From NCBI RefSeq assembly GCF_030814435.1, contig NZ_JAUSUW010000005.1:124001-188000 (forward strand): a stretch of DNA of 64,000 nt, written 5' to 3'. Positions 2,151 through 54,550 of this stretch are shown piece after piece; position 1 is the first letter of the stretch, and each line of letters starts with the position of its first letter. The position numbers were made by a program, and so were the translations under genes. This stretch comes from Peteryoungia aggregata LMG 23059 (GTDB lineage Bacteria > Pseudomonadota > Alphaproteobacteria > Rhizobiales > Rhizobiaceae). Under the pieces are notes generated by a model. It searched no databases. It was not told the DNA's origin and saw nothing but the letters and a program-made list of their open reading frames with translations.

Positions 2151-5100
2151 GTGTCCTTCGCGTTTCGCTTCTGCCTCCCCCATCGTCTTGGATCGCTGAC
2201 CTCGGGCCTGTTCATAGGCACGGCGACGACGTCCTTTGCCGCCGGCGAGGCGGTTTCGGCATCGGAAGCCAAGGCTTCTGCAGATCTGGCCTGGATGATG
2301 GCCGCCGCCGGCATGGTGATGATGATGCAGGTGGGGTTCCTGCTTCTGGAAGCCGGCATGGTCCGCTCCAAGAACTCGATCAATGTCGCCCAGAAAAACT
2401 TGCTCGACTTCGTCTTCGGGGTCGTCGGTTTTGCGGCCGTCGGTTTCATGCTGGCTTTCGGTTCTTCGGGTTGGCTGCCGATAGGTCTGGATGCGGATCT
2501 CTTCTTCCTTCGCGATCTCGACACCTGGCTGGCCGGATTTTTCGTTTTCCAGGTGATGTTCTGCGGCACGGCAGCCACGATCGTGTCCGGTGCCGTGGCA
2601 GAACGCATGAAGCTTTCCGCCTATGTCTTCGGCTCGATCGTGTTGTCGACGCTGATTTATCCGATCTTCGCGCACTGGGTCTGGGGCGGCGCAATCGGAC
2701 CGAACTCCGGGGCGTTTCTTGGCAATCTCGGTTTTGTGGACTTTGCAGGCTCGACCGTCGTCCATGCGACCGGCGGATGGGTGGCACTGGCGGCCTGCCT
2801 GGTGATTGGCCCGCGGCTCGGGCGCTTTGATGCGGCCGGCAGGCCGATCCGCATGGCGGGACATAATCCCGTTCTGGCCACGACAGGCGGTCTCATTCTG
2901 TTTTTCGGCTGGATCGGATTCAACGGCGGCTCGACGCTGACGGCCTCCGCCGATGTCGCGCCGATCATTCTCAACACCGTTCTTGCTGGCGGCATGGGCA
3001 CCTGCGTCGGCTACGCGCTTGGCATCAAGCAGGATGGCATCGTTCTCCCGGAAAAGGCGCTGTCCGGTATGCTCGGCGGCCTTGTGGCGGTCACCGCCGG
3101 CTGCCATCTCCTGGAAACGGGTGGAGCCTTGCTGACCGGTGCGCTGGGGGCTGGCGTCGCCGTCATTGGCACACAGTATCTCGAAGAGAAGCTGAAGGTG
3201 GACGATGCCGTGGGCGCGATTGGCGTTCACGCCTTCGCCGGCGTGGCCGGCACGATAGCGCTGGCATTGCTCGCGCCCGTCGACCGTTTGCCGGCGGGGG
3301 GGCGTTTCGACCAGCTCTATATCCAGGTCTTCGGCTCTGCGCTGAATTTCTATTGGGCTTTCGGGCTCGGTTTCGCCTTCTTCTGGTGCCTCGACCGGCT
3401 GGCTCCCATCAGGGTCTCCGCCGATGTGGAAGACCTCGGCCTGAATGTCGCCGAGCACGGCACCCGCCTCGGTGTCGGCCATGTCGAACATGCCCTGTCC
3501 AAGCTCGTCTCCGGCAATGCCGATCTCGGTGACCGCCTCCCGGTCGATCCGGGCGACGAGGCGGAAAAGCTGACACGCTTGTTCAACAGCCTGATGGACA
3601 ACATCCAGCAGGAGGAACGCGGTCGCCACGAGTTGGAAGCGCAAGTCCGCGACCAGGAAGAATCAGAGCGGGTGGCTGCACTGGCCAACGCCACCTTCGA
3701 GGCCATCGTGATGCACGAGGGTGGCGTGATCATCGACGGCAACGAGCAGTTCGAGGTGCTGACGGGGCGGGGGCTGTCCGAACTGATTGGCACCTCGATT
3801 CTCGATCTCGTGGACGGCACCGGCCGTCGCATGCTGATCGATGAACCGAATCCCGCACCTGACGTCTCGCGTGAATTCCAGGTGGTCCGGGAAGACGGGA
3901 CCCTGGTTCCGATCGAGGCACGCGGCCGCAACATCGAGTATCGTGGACGCCACATTCGCATCAGCTGCCTCGTGGATCTCAGCGAGCGCAAGGCAGCCGA
4001 GGGACGCATGCGCCATCTGGCCCAGCATGATCCTCTGACCGGCCTTGCCAATCGCGCCCTCTTCACCGAGACCCTGGCCGCCCATGTCGGTCGTGCGAAC
4101 CGCGACTGGGGTTGTGGAGTGCTGCTGGTTGACCTCGACCACTTCAAGGATGTCAACGATCTCTATGGTCATCCGGCTGGCGACGAGGTCATCCGCGAGA
4201 CGGCGCGGCGTCTGACGGCTGTGCTCGGCCCATCCGACATGGCGGCGCGTCTCGGCGGTGATGAATTCGCGGTCATTCTCGGAAACTGTCATTTTGAAGC
4301 ACAGATCGAGGACTTGAGTCGTCGCCTGATCGAGGCCTTCCGCCAGCCCTTCGACACGGGTCAGGGCGAGCGCATAAAATGTGGCATCAGCATCGGCGGG
4401 GCGCTTTGCCCCGAGCACGCCCAGGATTTCGATGAGCTGATCGGCCGCGCGGATGTGGCGCTCTATCACGCGAAGAAATCGGGCCGGAGCACCTTCCGGG
4501 CCTATCGTCGCGGCATGGACGAACTGATCGAGAAGCGACGGGCGCTGGAAGCCGACATCGAGCGGGGCCTGGAGCGGGACGAATTCGAGCTCTACCTGCA
4601 GCCCCGCGTGGCCGCGCGGGACGGCGCGATCGTCGGCTACGAAGCGCTGCTGCGCTGGTCCCATCCCGAACGGGGTATGGTGCAGCCGGGCGACTTCATT
4701 CCGGTAGCGGAGGTGTCCGGCAAGATCATAGATCTCGGCGAGTGGGTGCTGCGCGAAGCCTGCCGGCTGGCGGCGGACTTCCCCGATCATCTCCATCTGA
4801 GCATCAACGTCTCGCCGGTCCAGTTCCGCCACCCCGACTTCTTGAAGAACGTCGAGGATATTCTTTCCGCCTCCGGTGTCCTGCCGCGCAAGTTGGAGCT
4901 CGAGATCACCGAGAGCGTGCTGATCGACGACGACCAGCGGGCGCTGGTCCTTCTCGGTCATCTCAAGTCTCTGGGCCTGAGGATCGCGCTCGACGACTTT
5001 GGAACGGGTTACTCCTCGCTCAGCTATCTCCGGCGCTACCCTTTTGATGTCATCAAGATCGACCGCAGTTTCGTCTCCGCACTTGGCGAGGAGGAGACCG

Positions 5101-49757: not shown

Positions 49758-50105
49758 ATGTTTATCACGCAGGCCTTTGCCCAGGACGCGGCTGCCGCTC
49801 CGAGCGCCATGGGTTCCGGACTGGAGATGCTTCTGCTCTTCGCACCGCTGATGGTGGTCTGGTACTTCTTCCTCATCCGCCCGCAGCGCCAGCAGATGAA
49901 GAAGCGTGAGGAAACCCTGTCCGCGATCCGTCGCGGCGACCAGGTCGTCATGGGTGGTGGTATTGTCGCCAAGGTGACCAAGGTCATCGACGACAAGGAG
50001 CTCGAGGTCGAGATCGCCGACGGCGTCAAGGTTCGCGCCATGCGCCAGTATGTGGCGGAAGTCCGCGTCAAGGGCGAACCGGTCAAGACCGAGACCGCCG
50101 CCTGA
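49758..50105 (+). CDS. yajC: preprotein translocase subunit YajC
   Basis: A 115-residue protein with one membrane segment (LEMLLLFAPLMVVWYFFLI) followed by RPQRQQMKKREETLSAIRRGDQVVMGGGIVAKV, the YajC signature. Accessory component of the SecDF complex. secDF follows after about 60 bases with an intervening GC hairpin. Confidence 0.96.
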   Translation: MFITQAFAQDAAAAPSAMGSGLEMLLLFAPLMVVWYFFLIRPQRQQMKKREETLSAIRRGDQVVMGGGIVAKVTKVIDDKELEVEIADGVKVRAMRQYVAEVRVKGEPVKTETAA

Positions 50106-50114
50106 TCCCCGCTT

Positions 50115-50133
50115 GGCCGGCCTCGCGCCGGCC
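50115..50133 (+). other. hairpin between yajC and secDF
   Basis: GGCCGGC and GCCGGCC form a 7-bp stem around CTCGC, about 10 bases after the yajC stop. The T run that follows comes late (TTGCCTTTT), so it may act as a partial attenuator. Confidence 0.4.
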
Positions 50134-50167
50134 ATTGCCTTTTCCGACGCCTTAATTCGAGAGTTCC

Positions 50168-52720
50168 ATGCTTTACATTTCTCGCTGGAAGACATTGCTC
50201 ATCTGGTTGGTCGTGGCGATCAGCGTTCTGGTTGCCCTGCCCAATGCCTTCACAGACGAGGAACTGGAAGCCTTTCCGTCCTGGTTCCCGACCCACAAGG
50301 TGACGTTGGGCCTCGACCTTCAGGGCGGCTCCCACATCATGCTGAAGCTGGAGCGCCAGGACATCGTCAAGGAGCGCCTGGAGACGATCGTTGGCGACGT
50401 GCGCACGCAATTGCGCGACGCCGGCATCCGCTACACGGGGCTGTCGGGTGTCGGTCAGCAGATTCAGGTTCGCATCACCGATGCCGACAAGATCCCGGCC
50501 GCGATCGAGGCCCTGCGCACGCTGACCGATCCGGTCAGCGTTGGCGGCCTCACGGGCGGTACGGTGACGGAAGTCGCAGTGGAACAGGCCGAGGATGGCC
50601 TGCTGCGTCTGACACTTACGGATTCGGGCATTGACTACCGGGTCTCGTCGGCCCTGACACAGTCCATGGAAGTGGTCCGTCGTCGTGTCGACGAACTCGG
50701 CACGACAGAACCCTTGATCCAGCGCCAGGGCGACGATCGCATCATCGTGCAGGTTCCGGGCCTGACCGATCCACAGCGTCTGAAGGCGCTTCTCAACCAG
50801 ACCGCCAAACTGTCCTTCCACATGGTGGACACGACAATGCCGGTAACGGAGGCGATCAACACGCGTCCGCCGGCGCAGTCGGAAATTCTCTATTCGAACG
50901 ACGATCCTGCGGTGCCCTACCTGATCGAGCGGCGCGCCCTGATCTCGGGTGAAAACCTTGTCGATGCGCAGGCTTCCTTCGATCAGCGTTCCAATGAACC
51001 TGTCGTCAGCTTCCGCTTCGACAGCCGTGGCGCACAGCGATTTGCCCAGGCGACCCAGGAAAACGTTGGCCGTCCCTTTGCCATCGTGCTTGACCAGCAG
51101 GTGATCTCGGCGCCGGTCATCCGGGAGCCGATCATCGGTGGCTCGGGGCAGATTTCGGGCAATTTCTCCGTCGAAGGCGCAAACGATCTCGCCGTTCTGT
51201 TGCGGGCCGGCGCCCTTCCGGCAACCTTGACCGTGGTCGAGGAGCGCACCGTCGGTCCCGGCCTTGGCCAGGACTCGATCAATGCCGGCGTTACCGCCAG
51301 CATCATCGGTGGCATCGCGGTCGTGATATTCATGATTGCCTTCTATGGTACCTTCGGCGTGATGGCGAACATTGCGCTGGCGGCCAATATTGCGATGATC
51401 CTGGCGGCGCTGTCGCTGATCGGCTCCACGCTGACTTTGCCCGGCATTGCCGGCATTGTGTTGACCATCGGCATGGCGGTCGACTCGAACGTTCTGATTT
51501 ACGAGCGTATCCGCGAGGAGGCGCGCAATGGCAGGCCGCTGATCCAGGCAATTGACATCGGCTTCAAGAAGGCTTTTGCGACGATTGTCGACGCCAACCT
51601 GACGACCCTGATCGCGGCAGTCGTTCTGTTCTTCCTCGGCTCGGGACCCGTGCGTGGTTTTGCCGTGACGCTGTCGATCGGTATCGTGACGACAGTTTTC
51701 ACGGCCTTCACGCTGACCTTCTGGCTGATGGCCTTCTGGTACCGCTGGAAGCGCCCGAAGCACCTGCCAAAGAGTGTCCGCACCGGTTTCTTCGACAACC
51801 GCAACATCCGCTTCATGGCGGCGCGCAAGTTCAACTTTGTGGCAGCAGCCCTGATTTCCATCGCCTCGCTGATCGGTTTCGCGACCGTCGGTATGAATCT
51901 TGGCATCGACTTCAAGGGTGGTTCGATCATCGAGGTCCAGGCCCGCGACGGCAGCGCGGATCTGTCGGATATCCGTGAACGGCTGAGCCAGCTCAATCTC
52001 GGTGAAGTTCAGGCCCAGGGCTTCGGTGATGCATCGAGCGCTCTCATTCGTCTTCAGGCGCAGGACGGTGGCGAGAACGCCGAGCAGTCGGCACTGAGCA
52101 AGGTGCGCGGGGAGCTGGAGGCCGAATACGACTTCCGCCGCGTCGAGGTGGTCGGTCCCTCGGTGTCCAGCGATCTGACCTATTCGGCGACCATTGGCGT
52201 CGCGGCTGCTCTGTTCGGCATCCTGATCTACATCTGGTTCCGCTTTGAATGGCAGTTCGCGCTGGGAGCGATCATCGCGACACTTCATGACGTGATCTTC
52301 ACACTCGGCCTCTTCGTGCTGACGGGGATCGAGTTCAACCTCACCAGTATCGCGGCCATTCTGACCATCATCGGTTACTCGCTGAACGACACCGTCGTCG
52401 TCTATGACCGAATGCGCGAAAACTTGAGGCGCTACAAGAAGATGCCGCTTGAGGTGCTGATCGACGAATCGATCAACCAGACGCTCTCGCGTACGGTTCT
52501 GACTGCCGGCAGTACGATCCTGGCGCTGGGTGCGCTCTATCTTTTCGGGGGTGAAGTCATCGCATCCTTCACCTTTGCGATGCTGGCGGGCGTTCTGATC
52601 GGGACCTTCTCATCGATCTATATCGCCGGCCCCGTGCTGATCGCCTTCAAGTTGCGCCCGGAGAATTTCCAGCGCGATGAGTCAGAAGGTGAGAAGGCGA
52701 CGGCCAAGGCCGGGGCCTGA
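50168..52720 (+). CDS. secDF: preprotein translocase SecDF fusion
   Basis: An 850-residue fusion of SecD and SecF. LGLDLQGGSHIMLKLERQD is the SecD D1 motif; NPRLVIDYR-equivalent blocks and LRAGALPATLTVVEERTVGPGLGQDSI are SecD-like; VLTIGMAVDSNVLIYERIREE and a second LNDTVVVYDRMRENLR mark the SecD and SecF membrane domains. About 12 membrane segments. It uses the proton-motive force to pull translocated proteins. Fusion is usual in rhizobia. Second gene of yajC-secDF. Confidence 0.97.
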   Translation: MLYISRWKTLLIWLVVAISVLVALPNAFTDEELEAFPSWFPTHKVTLGLDLQGGSHIMLKLERQDIVKERLETIVGDVRTQLRDAGIRYTGLSGVGQQIQVRITDADKIPAAIEALRTLTDPVSVGGLTGGTVTEVAVEQAEDGLLRLTLTDSGIDYRVSSALTQSMEVVRRRVDELGTTEPLIQRQGDDRIIVQVPGLTDPQRLKALLNQTAKLSFHMVDTTMPVTEAINTRPPAQSEILYSNDDPAVPYLIERRALISGENLVDAQASFDQRSNEPVVSFRFDSRGAQRFAQATQENVGRPFAIVLDQQVISAPVIREPIIGGSGQISGNFSVEGANDLAVLLRAGALPATLTVVEERTVGPGLGQDSINAGVTASIIGGIAVVIFMIAFYGTFGVMANIALAANIAMILAALSLIGSTLTLPGIAGIVLTIGMAVDSNVLIYERIREEARNGRPLIQAIDIGFKKAFATIVDANLTTLIAAVVLFFLGSGPVRGFAVTLSIGIVTTVFTAFTLTFWLMAFWYRWKRPKHLPKSVRTGFFDNRNIRFMAARKFNFVAAALISIASLIGFATVGMNLGIDFKGGSIIEVQARDGSADLSDIRERLSQLNLGEVQAQGFGDASSALIRLQAQDGGENAEQSALSKVRGELEAEYDFRRVEVVGPSVSSDLTYSATIGVAAALFGILIYIWFRFEWQFALGAIIATLHDVIFTLGLFVLTGIEFNLTSIAAILTIIGYSLNDTVVVYDRMRENLRRYKKMPLEVLIDESINQTLSRTVLTAGSTILALGALYLFGGEVIASFTFAMLAGVLIGTFSSIYIAGPVLIAFKLRPENFQRDESEGEKATAKAGA

Positions 52721-52724
52721 GCCG

Positions 52725-53123
52725 ATGGTATTCGGCTTCGGAGACAAGGGCATCACAATCCGTGATGCCCATTTCCCGGGTCGGCCCGGCATCGACAGCT
52801 ACGGCAATGGCGGCTTCCGCTTTGCCGACATGTCGCATCGCGGCTCGCTGCTTTTGCTTCCCTCCGGCGTCTATGGCTGGGAGCAGACGGAAGAGGAGCC
52901 GATAACGCAAGCCTCGCTCGCCCGCGTCTTCGCCGAAACCGGCATCGAATTCCTGCTCCTTGGGACCGGACGCCAGCTGCGCCTTGTCGATCCGGATCTG
53001 AGGGCGGCCCTCAAGGCAAGGGGCATCGCCACAGATCCGATGGGAACCGGGGCGGCGATCCGCACGTATAACATCATGCTGGCCGAGCAGCGCCCGGTCG
53101 CCGCCGCTTTGATTGCGGTGTGA
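52725..53123 (+). CDS. Mth938-domain protein (NDUFAF3-like)
   Basis: A 132-residue protein of the Mth938/DUF498 fold. IRDAHFPGRPGIDSYGNGGFRFADMSHRGSLLLLPSGVYGWE and FLLLGTGRQLRLVDPDL are family-specific. Human NDUFAF3, a mitochondrial complex I assembly factor, has the same domain. The ATG is five bases after the secDF stop, so translational linkage is likely. An alternative longer start overlaps secDF but is less family-like. Function in bacteria is not firmly established. Confidence 0.88.
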   Translation: MVFGFGDKGITIRDAHFPGRPGIDSYGNGGFRFADMSHRGSLLLLPSGVYGWEQTEEEPITQASLARVFAETGIEFLLLGTGRQLRLVDPDLRAALKARGIATDPMGTGAAIRTYNIMLAEQRPVAAALIAV

Positions 53124-53145
53124 ACCAGTCACTGGAAGGTGCATT

Positions 53146-54000
53146 GTGAGTGAGACCCTGTCGGCCAATGAGGCGCTTTGCCTGCAGGCCTTGCGCGAAA
53201 TGGACCGGGATCGCTACCTTGCGAGCCTGCTGAGCCCGACCGATCGACGGTCGGCCATCACCGCTCTCTATGCTTACAATGCCGAATTGGCCCGTGTTCG
53301 CGACGTCGCGCGAGAACCCCTGCCGGGCGAGATCCGGCTGCAATATTGGCGCGACCTGCTTGAAGGTGCAGCGCATGGCGAGACGGCGGCAAACCCGGTG
53401 GCTTCCGAAGTGCTGCGAGCCATCCAGGCCTGGCGCCTTCCCGTTTCGCCGCTCGTGGCCATGACGGAGGCGCGCATTTTCGACCTCTATGATGATCCCA
53501 TGGAAACTACCGCGATGTTCGAGGGGTATGCCGGCGAAACGGCGGCCGCCTTGGTCCAGCTCGTTTGCCTGGTTCTCGACGCCGAGGCAGCGGAAGACGT
53601 CGCCGAGATTGTCGGACATGCAGGTGTGGCGTTATCGGTGGCGGGTGCCATCCTGTTGCTGCCGGCGCACCGCGCACGCGGACAGCTGTATCTTCCGACA
53701 GAGATCCTGGCCGCAGCAGGGCTTGATCGAGAGAGTTTTCTGGGCAACGGCGATGATGCGCGGCGATCCGCCGCCATCGAAGCCTTTGCCGGATTTGGGC
53801 TCGATCATCTGCGCAAGGCGCGTGCGGCGGGTCGTCTGCCGAAATCTCTTGTCGCAGCCTTCCTGCCTGTCACCCTGGCGGAGCCCGTGCTCAAGCGGGC
53901 CCAAAAGACAGGAGACGGCTGTCTATCGGCGGATCTTCGCCCATCGCAATGGCGCCGCCAGTTGGCGATGATGCGACTCCTGCTCACGGGCCGGCTCTGA
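53146..54000 (+). CDS. squalene/phytoene synthase-fold protein (NDUFAF6-like)
   Basis: A 284-residue isoprenoid-synthase-fold protein. AITALYAYNAELARVRDVAREPLPGEIRLQYWRDLLEG matches the first motif region; LSVAGAILLLPAHRARGQLYLPTEIL covers the second. True squalene and phytoene synthases have a second Asp-rich motif (NxxRDxxED) here; this protein lacks the acidic residues. NDUFAF6, a complex I assembly factor, shares these features, so an assembly rather than a catalytic role is inferred. GTG start preceded by GGAAGG; the first codons come 22 bases after the Mth938 stop. Confidence 0.82.
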   Translation: MSETLSANEALCLQALREMDRDRYLASLLSPTDRRSAITALYAYNAELARVRDVAREPLPGEIRLQYWRDLLEGAAHGETAANPVASEVLRAIQAWRLPVSPLVAMTEARIFDLYDDPMETTAMFEGYAGETAAALVQLVCLVLDAEAAEDVAEIVGHAGVALSVAGAILLLPAHRARGQLYLPTEILAAAGLDRESFLGNGDDARRSAAIEAFAGFGLDHLRKARAAGRLPKSLVAAFLPVTLAEPVLKRAQKTGDGCLSADLRPSQWRRQLAMMRLLLTGRL

Positions 54001-54097: not shown

Positions 54098-54550
54098 ATG
54101 GTGACTTGGGGTATCGTCTTGGCGCTCGTTGGCGCATTGGCCTATTTCGCGTCGCGGATGGCACGGCAGGAGGAGGAAGACGGCTTCCAGGACGCCGGCT
54201 TGGCCATTCTCGAATTCGGCAGAGCCTTTCCCCAGGAAGCAATCCGCAGTTTGCACGCCACGGCAGACGGCAAGGCCGTCTTCGTTCGTCTGCATGACAA
54301 CAAGGCAGGCTTCATGCGCAGCATGCGCAACCACTTCGCCTGCCATTTGATCGAACCCGGCACGGTCCGCGTCCGTGACCTGCCTGGTGGGAAGGGCTTT
54401 GCCATCGAATTTCTCGATGCGCCCTTCCACAATGGCGAATTCACCTTTTCGAACCCGACGACTGCCGCCGAGGTGTCGCTCTGGCTGCTCGGCAACTATG
54501 TTGGCCACGCCGACCGGCAGCCGGATACGCTGTCCAGCACCACCGGTTGA
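54098..54550 (+). CDS. hypothetical membrane-anchored protein
   Basis: A 150-residue protein with one N-terminal membrane segment (WGIVLALVGALAYFAS) and a soluble domain (AILEFGRAFPQEAIRSLHATADGKAVFVRLHDNKAGFMR, FTFSNPTTAAEVSLWLLGNY). GGAGGCGAG precedes ATG. No family recognised. It follows the NDUFAF6-like gene at about 95 bases on the same strand, so it may belong to the yajC-secDF transcript. Confidence 0.65.
   Translation: MVTWGIVLALVGALAYFASRMARQEEEDGFQDAGLAILEFGRAFPQEAIRSLHATADGKAVFVRLHDNKAGFMRSMRNHFACHLIEPGTVRVRDLPGGKGFAIEFLDAPFHNGEFTFSNPTTAAEVSLWLLGNYVGHADRQPDTLSSTTG

Follow-up and report, generated by a model that had tools for sequence, protein, structure and literature searches.

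Bacterial relatives of NDUFAF3 and NDUFAF6 that follow secDF in Alphaproteobacteria are candidate assembly factors for mitochondrial-type complex I

Two genes lying directly downstream of secDF in Peteryoungia aggregata LMG 23059 encode proteins that we call AF3 and AF6. They are probably the bacterial NDUFAF3 and NDUFAF6, that is, assembly factors for the alphaproteobacterial (mitochondrial-type) form of respiratory complex I. Two observations are added here: both catalytic motifs of the synthase family have been lost across the bacterial AF6 group, and in one alphaproteobacterial family AF6 was lost together with the native type of complex I.

The central idea is not new: in 2009 Saada et al. 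reportedly connected NDUFAF3, on the basis of gene conservation, both with C8ORF38 (NDUFAF6) and with SecF/SecD/YajC, a cluster for membrane insertion in bacteria. Our own literature searches for NDUFAF3 with SecF and YajC, or with SecD, found no paper. A later article, which cites Saada et al. 2009, describes tight co-evolution of the trio NDUFAF3, C8orf38 and C2orf56 (PMC3436739).

Results

A four-gene cluster

We refer to the whole 64,000-nucleotide stretch of DNA that was analyzed as the window. The cluster within it consists of four genes:

49758..50105, + strand: yajC, translocase accessory subunit (PF02699 YajC, 9.2e-24; TIGR00739, 80.2 bits, cut-off 44.2)
50168..52720, + strand: secDF, fused SecD-SecF translocase subunit (NF011315 SecDF, 1451.6 bits, cut-off 1249; SecD_SecF_C, 1.6e-85)
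52725..53123, + strand: AF3, Mth938/DUF498-domain protein of NDUFAF3 type (PF04430 DUF498, 1.3e-31, 109.2 bits, cut-off 33)
53146..54000, + strand: AF6, squalene/phytoene-synthase fold, NDUFAF6 type (PF00494 SQS_PSY, 6.7e-47, 160.8 bits, cut-off 26)

All four genes run in the same direction, with gaps of 62 bases between yajC and secDF, 4 between secDF and AF3, and 22 between AF3 and AF6; AF3 starts with ATG and AF6 with GTG. The layout proposed in the sequence-only reading, including the 4-base and 22-base gaps downstream of secDF, was recovered at the same coordinates. Each of the four products exceeded the curated Pfam cut-off for its domain (YajC, SecD_SecF_C, PF04430 and PF00494). The AF6 query used for the Pfam, NCBIfam and PDB sequence searches bore one extra leading codon. 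Across the 4.83 Mb host genome there is one PF04430 match (AF3), one NuoH, and two PF00494 matches, namely AF6 and a second protein that has both Asp motifs (DDLID and RDIGED).

AF3 carries the domain of NDUFAF3

NDUFAF3 (C3orf60), a mitochondrial complex I assembly factor, carries the Mth938/DUF498 domain, and AF3 has the same domain with a score more than three times the cut-off. The relationship of AF3 to NDUFAF3 that had been suggested from the sequence therefore appears sound at the level of this domain. A PDB sequence search gave as solved relatives 2fi9 (1.2e-38), 2fvt (7.2e-33) and, weakly, 2ab1 (C11orf67, 0.0048), the last of which we take to be the structure of AAMDC. According to a passage of PMC11810957, NDUFAF3 and AAMDC have a common Pfam and InterPro domain, which is not named there. 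Unlike NDUFAF3, AF3 is bacterial and adjoins secDF; it was not found in any of the six genomes of family f19 in our class sample (0/6).

AF6 has lost both catalytic motifs and kept the fold

The hallmark of the enzymes in the squalene/phytoene-synthase family is a pair of DxxxD motifs that bind magnesium and substrate. The sequence-only reading had the second Asp-rich motif of AF6 missing. The alignment that we ran to examine the Asp residues agrees on the second motif and shows that the first is gone too: aligned with DDxxD paralogues, the window AF6 reads ARVRD and LLPAH at the two sites. DxxxD occurs at either site in 0 of 83 AF6-type rows and at both sites in 8 of 8 enzyme paralogues. An AF6 that lost only the second motif was thus rejected, both DxxxD sites being replaced in the alignment. 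The stretch holding the second motif has disappeared altogether in 5 of 37 class-wide AF6 rows (L055, L061, L063, L070 and L071), which are shortened proteins of 211-242 aa. A strongly conserved stretch with the consensus RLQWWRD contains W68, the sole invariant Trp there in the class-wide alignment.

The fold, as modeled, is intact. An AlphaFold2 model of AF6 (mean pLDDT 95.9, pTM 0.93) covers the synthase fold in full: it matched 8isa with Z 27.9 (rmsd 2.7 over 271 residues), human squalene synthase 3weh with Z 22.7, and YisP 3we9 with Z 22.4. With the squalene/phytoene synthases HpnC, HpnD and CrtB the window AF6 has the family and fold (PF00494) in common; unlike them it has no DxxxD, and it scores far below the NCBIfam equivalog cut-offs, none of which it reached (HpnD, 65.3 bits, cut-off 278.6). 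When the 37 class-wide members were compared with NCBIfam, five families were listed, all of them HpnC, HpnD or CrtB models. Family models therefore now direct the AF6 group to squalene/phytoene synthases (the best being HpnD, HpnC and CrtB), and no model of its own appeared. Judged by the absent motifs, AF6 appears not to be an active synthase. It is also unlikely to be the squalene synthase of its genome, because the second PF00494 protein with both motifs exists.

NDUFAF6 (C8orf38) is likewise a member of the squalene/phytoene-synthase family in which both DxxxD motifs have been lost. According to PMC12470011, AxxxD and AxxxH/SxxxH stand at these sites in NDUFAF6 of human and Arabidopsis, but not in the fly or nematode proteins; the AxxxD and LxxxH of the window AF6 are close to them. 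PMC8007014 likewise states that the motifs are missing from NDUFAF6, from Candida NDU1 and from the orthologues of both, and that complex I needs NDU1 in order to assemble and be active. With the same fold family, the loss of both Asp motifs and similar replacements, AF6 appears to be related to NDUFAF6, as had been proposed. No eukaryotic NDUFAF6 was listed in the PDB sequence searches with AF6. Unlike NDUFAF6, AF6 is bacterial and sits in a secDF cluster, the second-motif stretch is lost in some lineages, and its complex I role is putative.

Conservation of gene order

We fetched 37 loci from a 57-genome class sample and dropped one DDxxD paralogue, leaving 36, each from a different family. 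At 29 of these 36 loci yajC, secDF or AF3 lies within about 4 kb upstream of AF6, with AF3 itself present in 21. A set of 80 named loci, the best 80 of 580 confirmed candidates, is more uniform: AF3 is upstream of AF6 in 79, within about 210 bases in 77 of these, and yajC and secDF are found in 75 and 70 of the 80, respectively. The nearest named AF6 relatives come from Rhizobium, Neorhizobium and Pseudorhizobium, at up to about 61% identity, a set that may omit records very close to the window. Because the layout recurs in other families, it is not a chance neighborhood.

At seven of the 80 named loci (L262, L263, L264, L266, L267, L268 and L292) the order is yajC-AF3-AF6 with no secDF between, so that AF3 and AF6 form the tighter pair there. 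Other genes also recur. Of the 36 class-wide loci, 30 have a superoxide dismutase (13 loci) or a Urate_ox_N-type membrane protein (20 loci) upstream of AF6, three of them both, which means that the neighborhood is not one of translocase genes alone; the 80 named loci (the best 80 of 580) showed neither. Examples of such genes, Urate_ox_N (PF06181) or iron/manganese superoxide dismutase, are at 3290-3892 of locus L060 and 3143-3745 of locus L051, with AF6 set as the + strand.

Searches with seven E. coli Nuo queries, the NuoA query being incomplete, gave no match in 127 loci of about 2-13 kb, a set that includes two paralogue loci that are not AF6 (L067 and L215). The idea that AF6 or AF3 stands beside nuo in some lineage was rejected for want of any Nuo match in these loci.

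Distribution across the class

We searched 389 alphaproteobacterial genomes, each at least 95% complete, and counted an AF6 match as strong at E < 1e-39. NuoH was found in 350 genomes, PF04430 in 233 and strong AF6 in 223. Strong AF6 was present in 222 of the 350 genomes with NuoH versus 1 of the 39 without, and PF04430 in 232 of 350 versus 1 of 39. The association runs one way, with 88 of the 350 NuoH-bearing genomes having neither PF04430 nor strong AF6. E. coli, included as a control, has a NuoH match but neither PF00494 nor PF04430. The sole NuoH-less genome with AF6 or AF3 (G229) has both, and no NuoD match; its congener G085 has NuoH.

Several features of the counts affect how they should be read. 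NuoH was counted at E <= 0.001, so some of the 350 matches are weak or partial (G127, 3.6e-23; G075, 1.7e-54) and these genomes may lack native-type complex I, while G252 was scored as NuoH-less though NuoD is present. In 80 of the 303 class-sample genomes that match AF6 the match is weaker than the cut-off; these 80 include paralogues as well as some true AF6, of which G248 is a demonstrated case, and the AF6 counts are therefore probably lower bounds.

Genome reduction explains part of the class-wide co-occurrence. Among the 39 genomes without NuoH, 35 are no larger than 1.8 Mb. Within this size range, and with kinship ignored, AF6 was found in 6 of 60 genomes with NuoH versus 0 of 35 without (p 0.08, not significant), AF3 in 8 of 60 versus 0 of 35 (p 0.025), and either gene in 12 of 60 versus 0 of 35 (p 0.003).

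Co-loss of AF6 and native-type complex I in one family

The 110 genomes of family f19 contain two types of nuo locus. In the gammaproteobacterial type NuoC and NuoD are fused (NuoCD) and NuoH is 56-81% identical to that of E. coli; the native type (20 loci read) has unfused NuoC and NuoD, and its NuoH shows 41-46% identity. The type was read from the sequence in 20 native and 18 gammaproteobacterial loci and assigned by NuoH score in the others. AF6 is present in none of the 9 genomes without NuoH (which have no NuoD above the family cut-off either), in none of the 11 with only gammaproteobacterial-type nuo, and in 84 of the 86 with the native type. Genomes known to have both types (G417, G432, G443, G451, G456, G475 and G480) have AF6 by score or motif. 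In this family the distribution of AF6 is thus tied to native-type complex I, as would fit a protein like NDUFAF6. Part of the literature on acetic acid bacteria describes two nuo operon clades, of which the extra one was possibly acquired horizontally, and none in Gluconobacter oxydans (PMC4596401).

For the 20 genomes without AF6, the best profile match was a DDxxD paralogue in all 20; a second, weaker match could be read as a separate frame in 8 and was also DDxxD, and there was no third match. Most of the 84 AF6 genomes were accepted by score rather than by individual reading; they include two with a stop inside the AF6 match (G488 and G412) and two scored on contig-end fragments (G396 and G413). 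Left out of the 86 are G406, G436, G449 and G493, which have AF6 and no strong NuoH, with NuoD present in G436 and G493. Two genomes have native-type nuo without a working AF6. In G434 none was found. G445 (locus L214) runs against the general pattern in that it holds broken AF6 remnants though native-type complex I is kept.

We placed 70 of the 110 genomes on an rpoB tree, built by a quick method with SH-aLRT support only. The 20 genomes that have no native-type nuo fall into a single clade (SH-aLRT 98), so that loss of native-type nuo is a single change on the tree, with loss of AF6 on the same branch; two more losses of AF6 occur elsewhere. The co-loss of AF6 and native-type complex I in this family is one event. 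The AF6-less clade includes genomes of 2.9-3.7 Mb that have the other type of complex I.

Discussion

On the best reading of these results, AF3 and AF6 serve complex I of the alphaproteobacterial type as assembly factors that have no catalytic activity and that seem to aid assembly without being indispensable to it, since NuoH occurs in many genomes that lack them. From mitochondrial work we infer which subunits they would bind and in what order. AF6, lacking catalytic residues, probably holds newly inserted NuoH (ND1) at the membrane, and AF3 probably holds quinone-module subunits until docking; to judge by gene order, SecDF and YajC of the same operon would help to insert the membrane subunits. 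A defining property of NDUFAF3 is its binding to NDUFAF4 and to quinone-module subunits. A review table assigns NDUFAF3 to the Q module and NDUFAF6 to the PP module (PMC10910544). Elsewhere, individual passages cite a role of NDUFAF6 in ND1 biogenesis (PMC8007014) and suggest that it may help to stabilize a peripheral-arm sub-complex that interacts with ND1 (PMC4938201).

The sequence-only reading had proposed an ancestral link between SecDF/YajC and complex I assembly. Its complex I half gains from the co-occurrence with NuoH and from the one co-loss in family f19, while its SecDF half comes from gene order. Against the proposal stand the 88 of 350 NuoH genomes with neither gene, the lack of nuo matches in the 127 loci, the absence of AF3 from the six f19 genomes, the seven of 80 named loci without secDF, and the superoxide dismutase or Urate_ox_N neighbors at 30 of 36 loci. 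Some of these points would also fit another view, in which AF3 and AF6, rather than being dedicated to complex I, give general help to membrane-protein insertion by SecDF/YajC/YidC and the complex I role is a specialization of mitochondria. That the cluster with secDF and yajC recurs across families speaks for such helpers, as do the missing nuo matches and the 88 genomes. However, AF6 in family f19 tracks the type of complex I, whereas membrane insertion is a general need throughout, and the seven named loci keep yajC-AF3-AF6 together with no secDF in the cluster; we regard general helpers as unlikely.

Less probable again is a retained lipid function, in which AF6 would bind an isoprenoid or quinone-like lipid, or convert one, and pass it on to complex I or some other membrane complex. 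A confident model shows the synthase fold preserved in its entirety (mean pLDDT 95.9; Z 27.9 to 8isa and 22.4 to YisP 3we9), but both DxxxD motifs are absent from 83 of 83 rows, the second-motif stretch is gone from 5 of 37 class-wide, and a separate PF00494 protein of the host has both motifs. We think it very improbable that the co-distribution is a mere by-product of genome reduction and shared ancestry, with the gene order an old relic that implies no functional coupling. The small size of 35 of the 39 NuoH-less genomes, the single branch of the f19 co-loss and the unrelated-looking superoxide dismutase/Urate_ox_N genes at 30 of 36 class-wide loci would suit a relic; set against this, the AF6-less f19 clade holds genomes of 2.9-3.7 Mb with another type of complex I, and 79 of 80 named loci (the best 80 of 580) preserve AF3 ahead of AF6.

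If AF3 and AF6 are indeed complex I assembly factors, counterparts of two human disease genes exist in genetically tractable bacteria, where their molecular roles could be studied without the organelle. On a more specific proposal our opinion is evenly divided: AF6, with AF3 where present, would be a chaperone dedicated to complex I of the alphaproteobacterial, mitochondrial type, a role older than mitochondria, and cells that switch to the gammaproteobacterial type would cease to need AF6 and would lose it. Were this true, it would be the enzyme's lineage, not the organelle, that decides whether AF6 is needed. The replacement of native-type complex I in family f19 offers a natural experiment for matching each enzyme to the assembly factor it requires.

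Other features of the window

A 150-aa open reading frame at 54098-54550, 3' of AF6, has no Pfam or NCBIfam match. A promoter scan gave no promoter-like sites, and we draw no regulatory conclusion from it. In the gap between yajC and secDF, at 50114-50134, there is a G+C-rich hairpin of eight pairs that was flagged as terminator-like and is possibly an attenuator; the scan of the window found 6 terminator-like sites against 3.9 expected.
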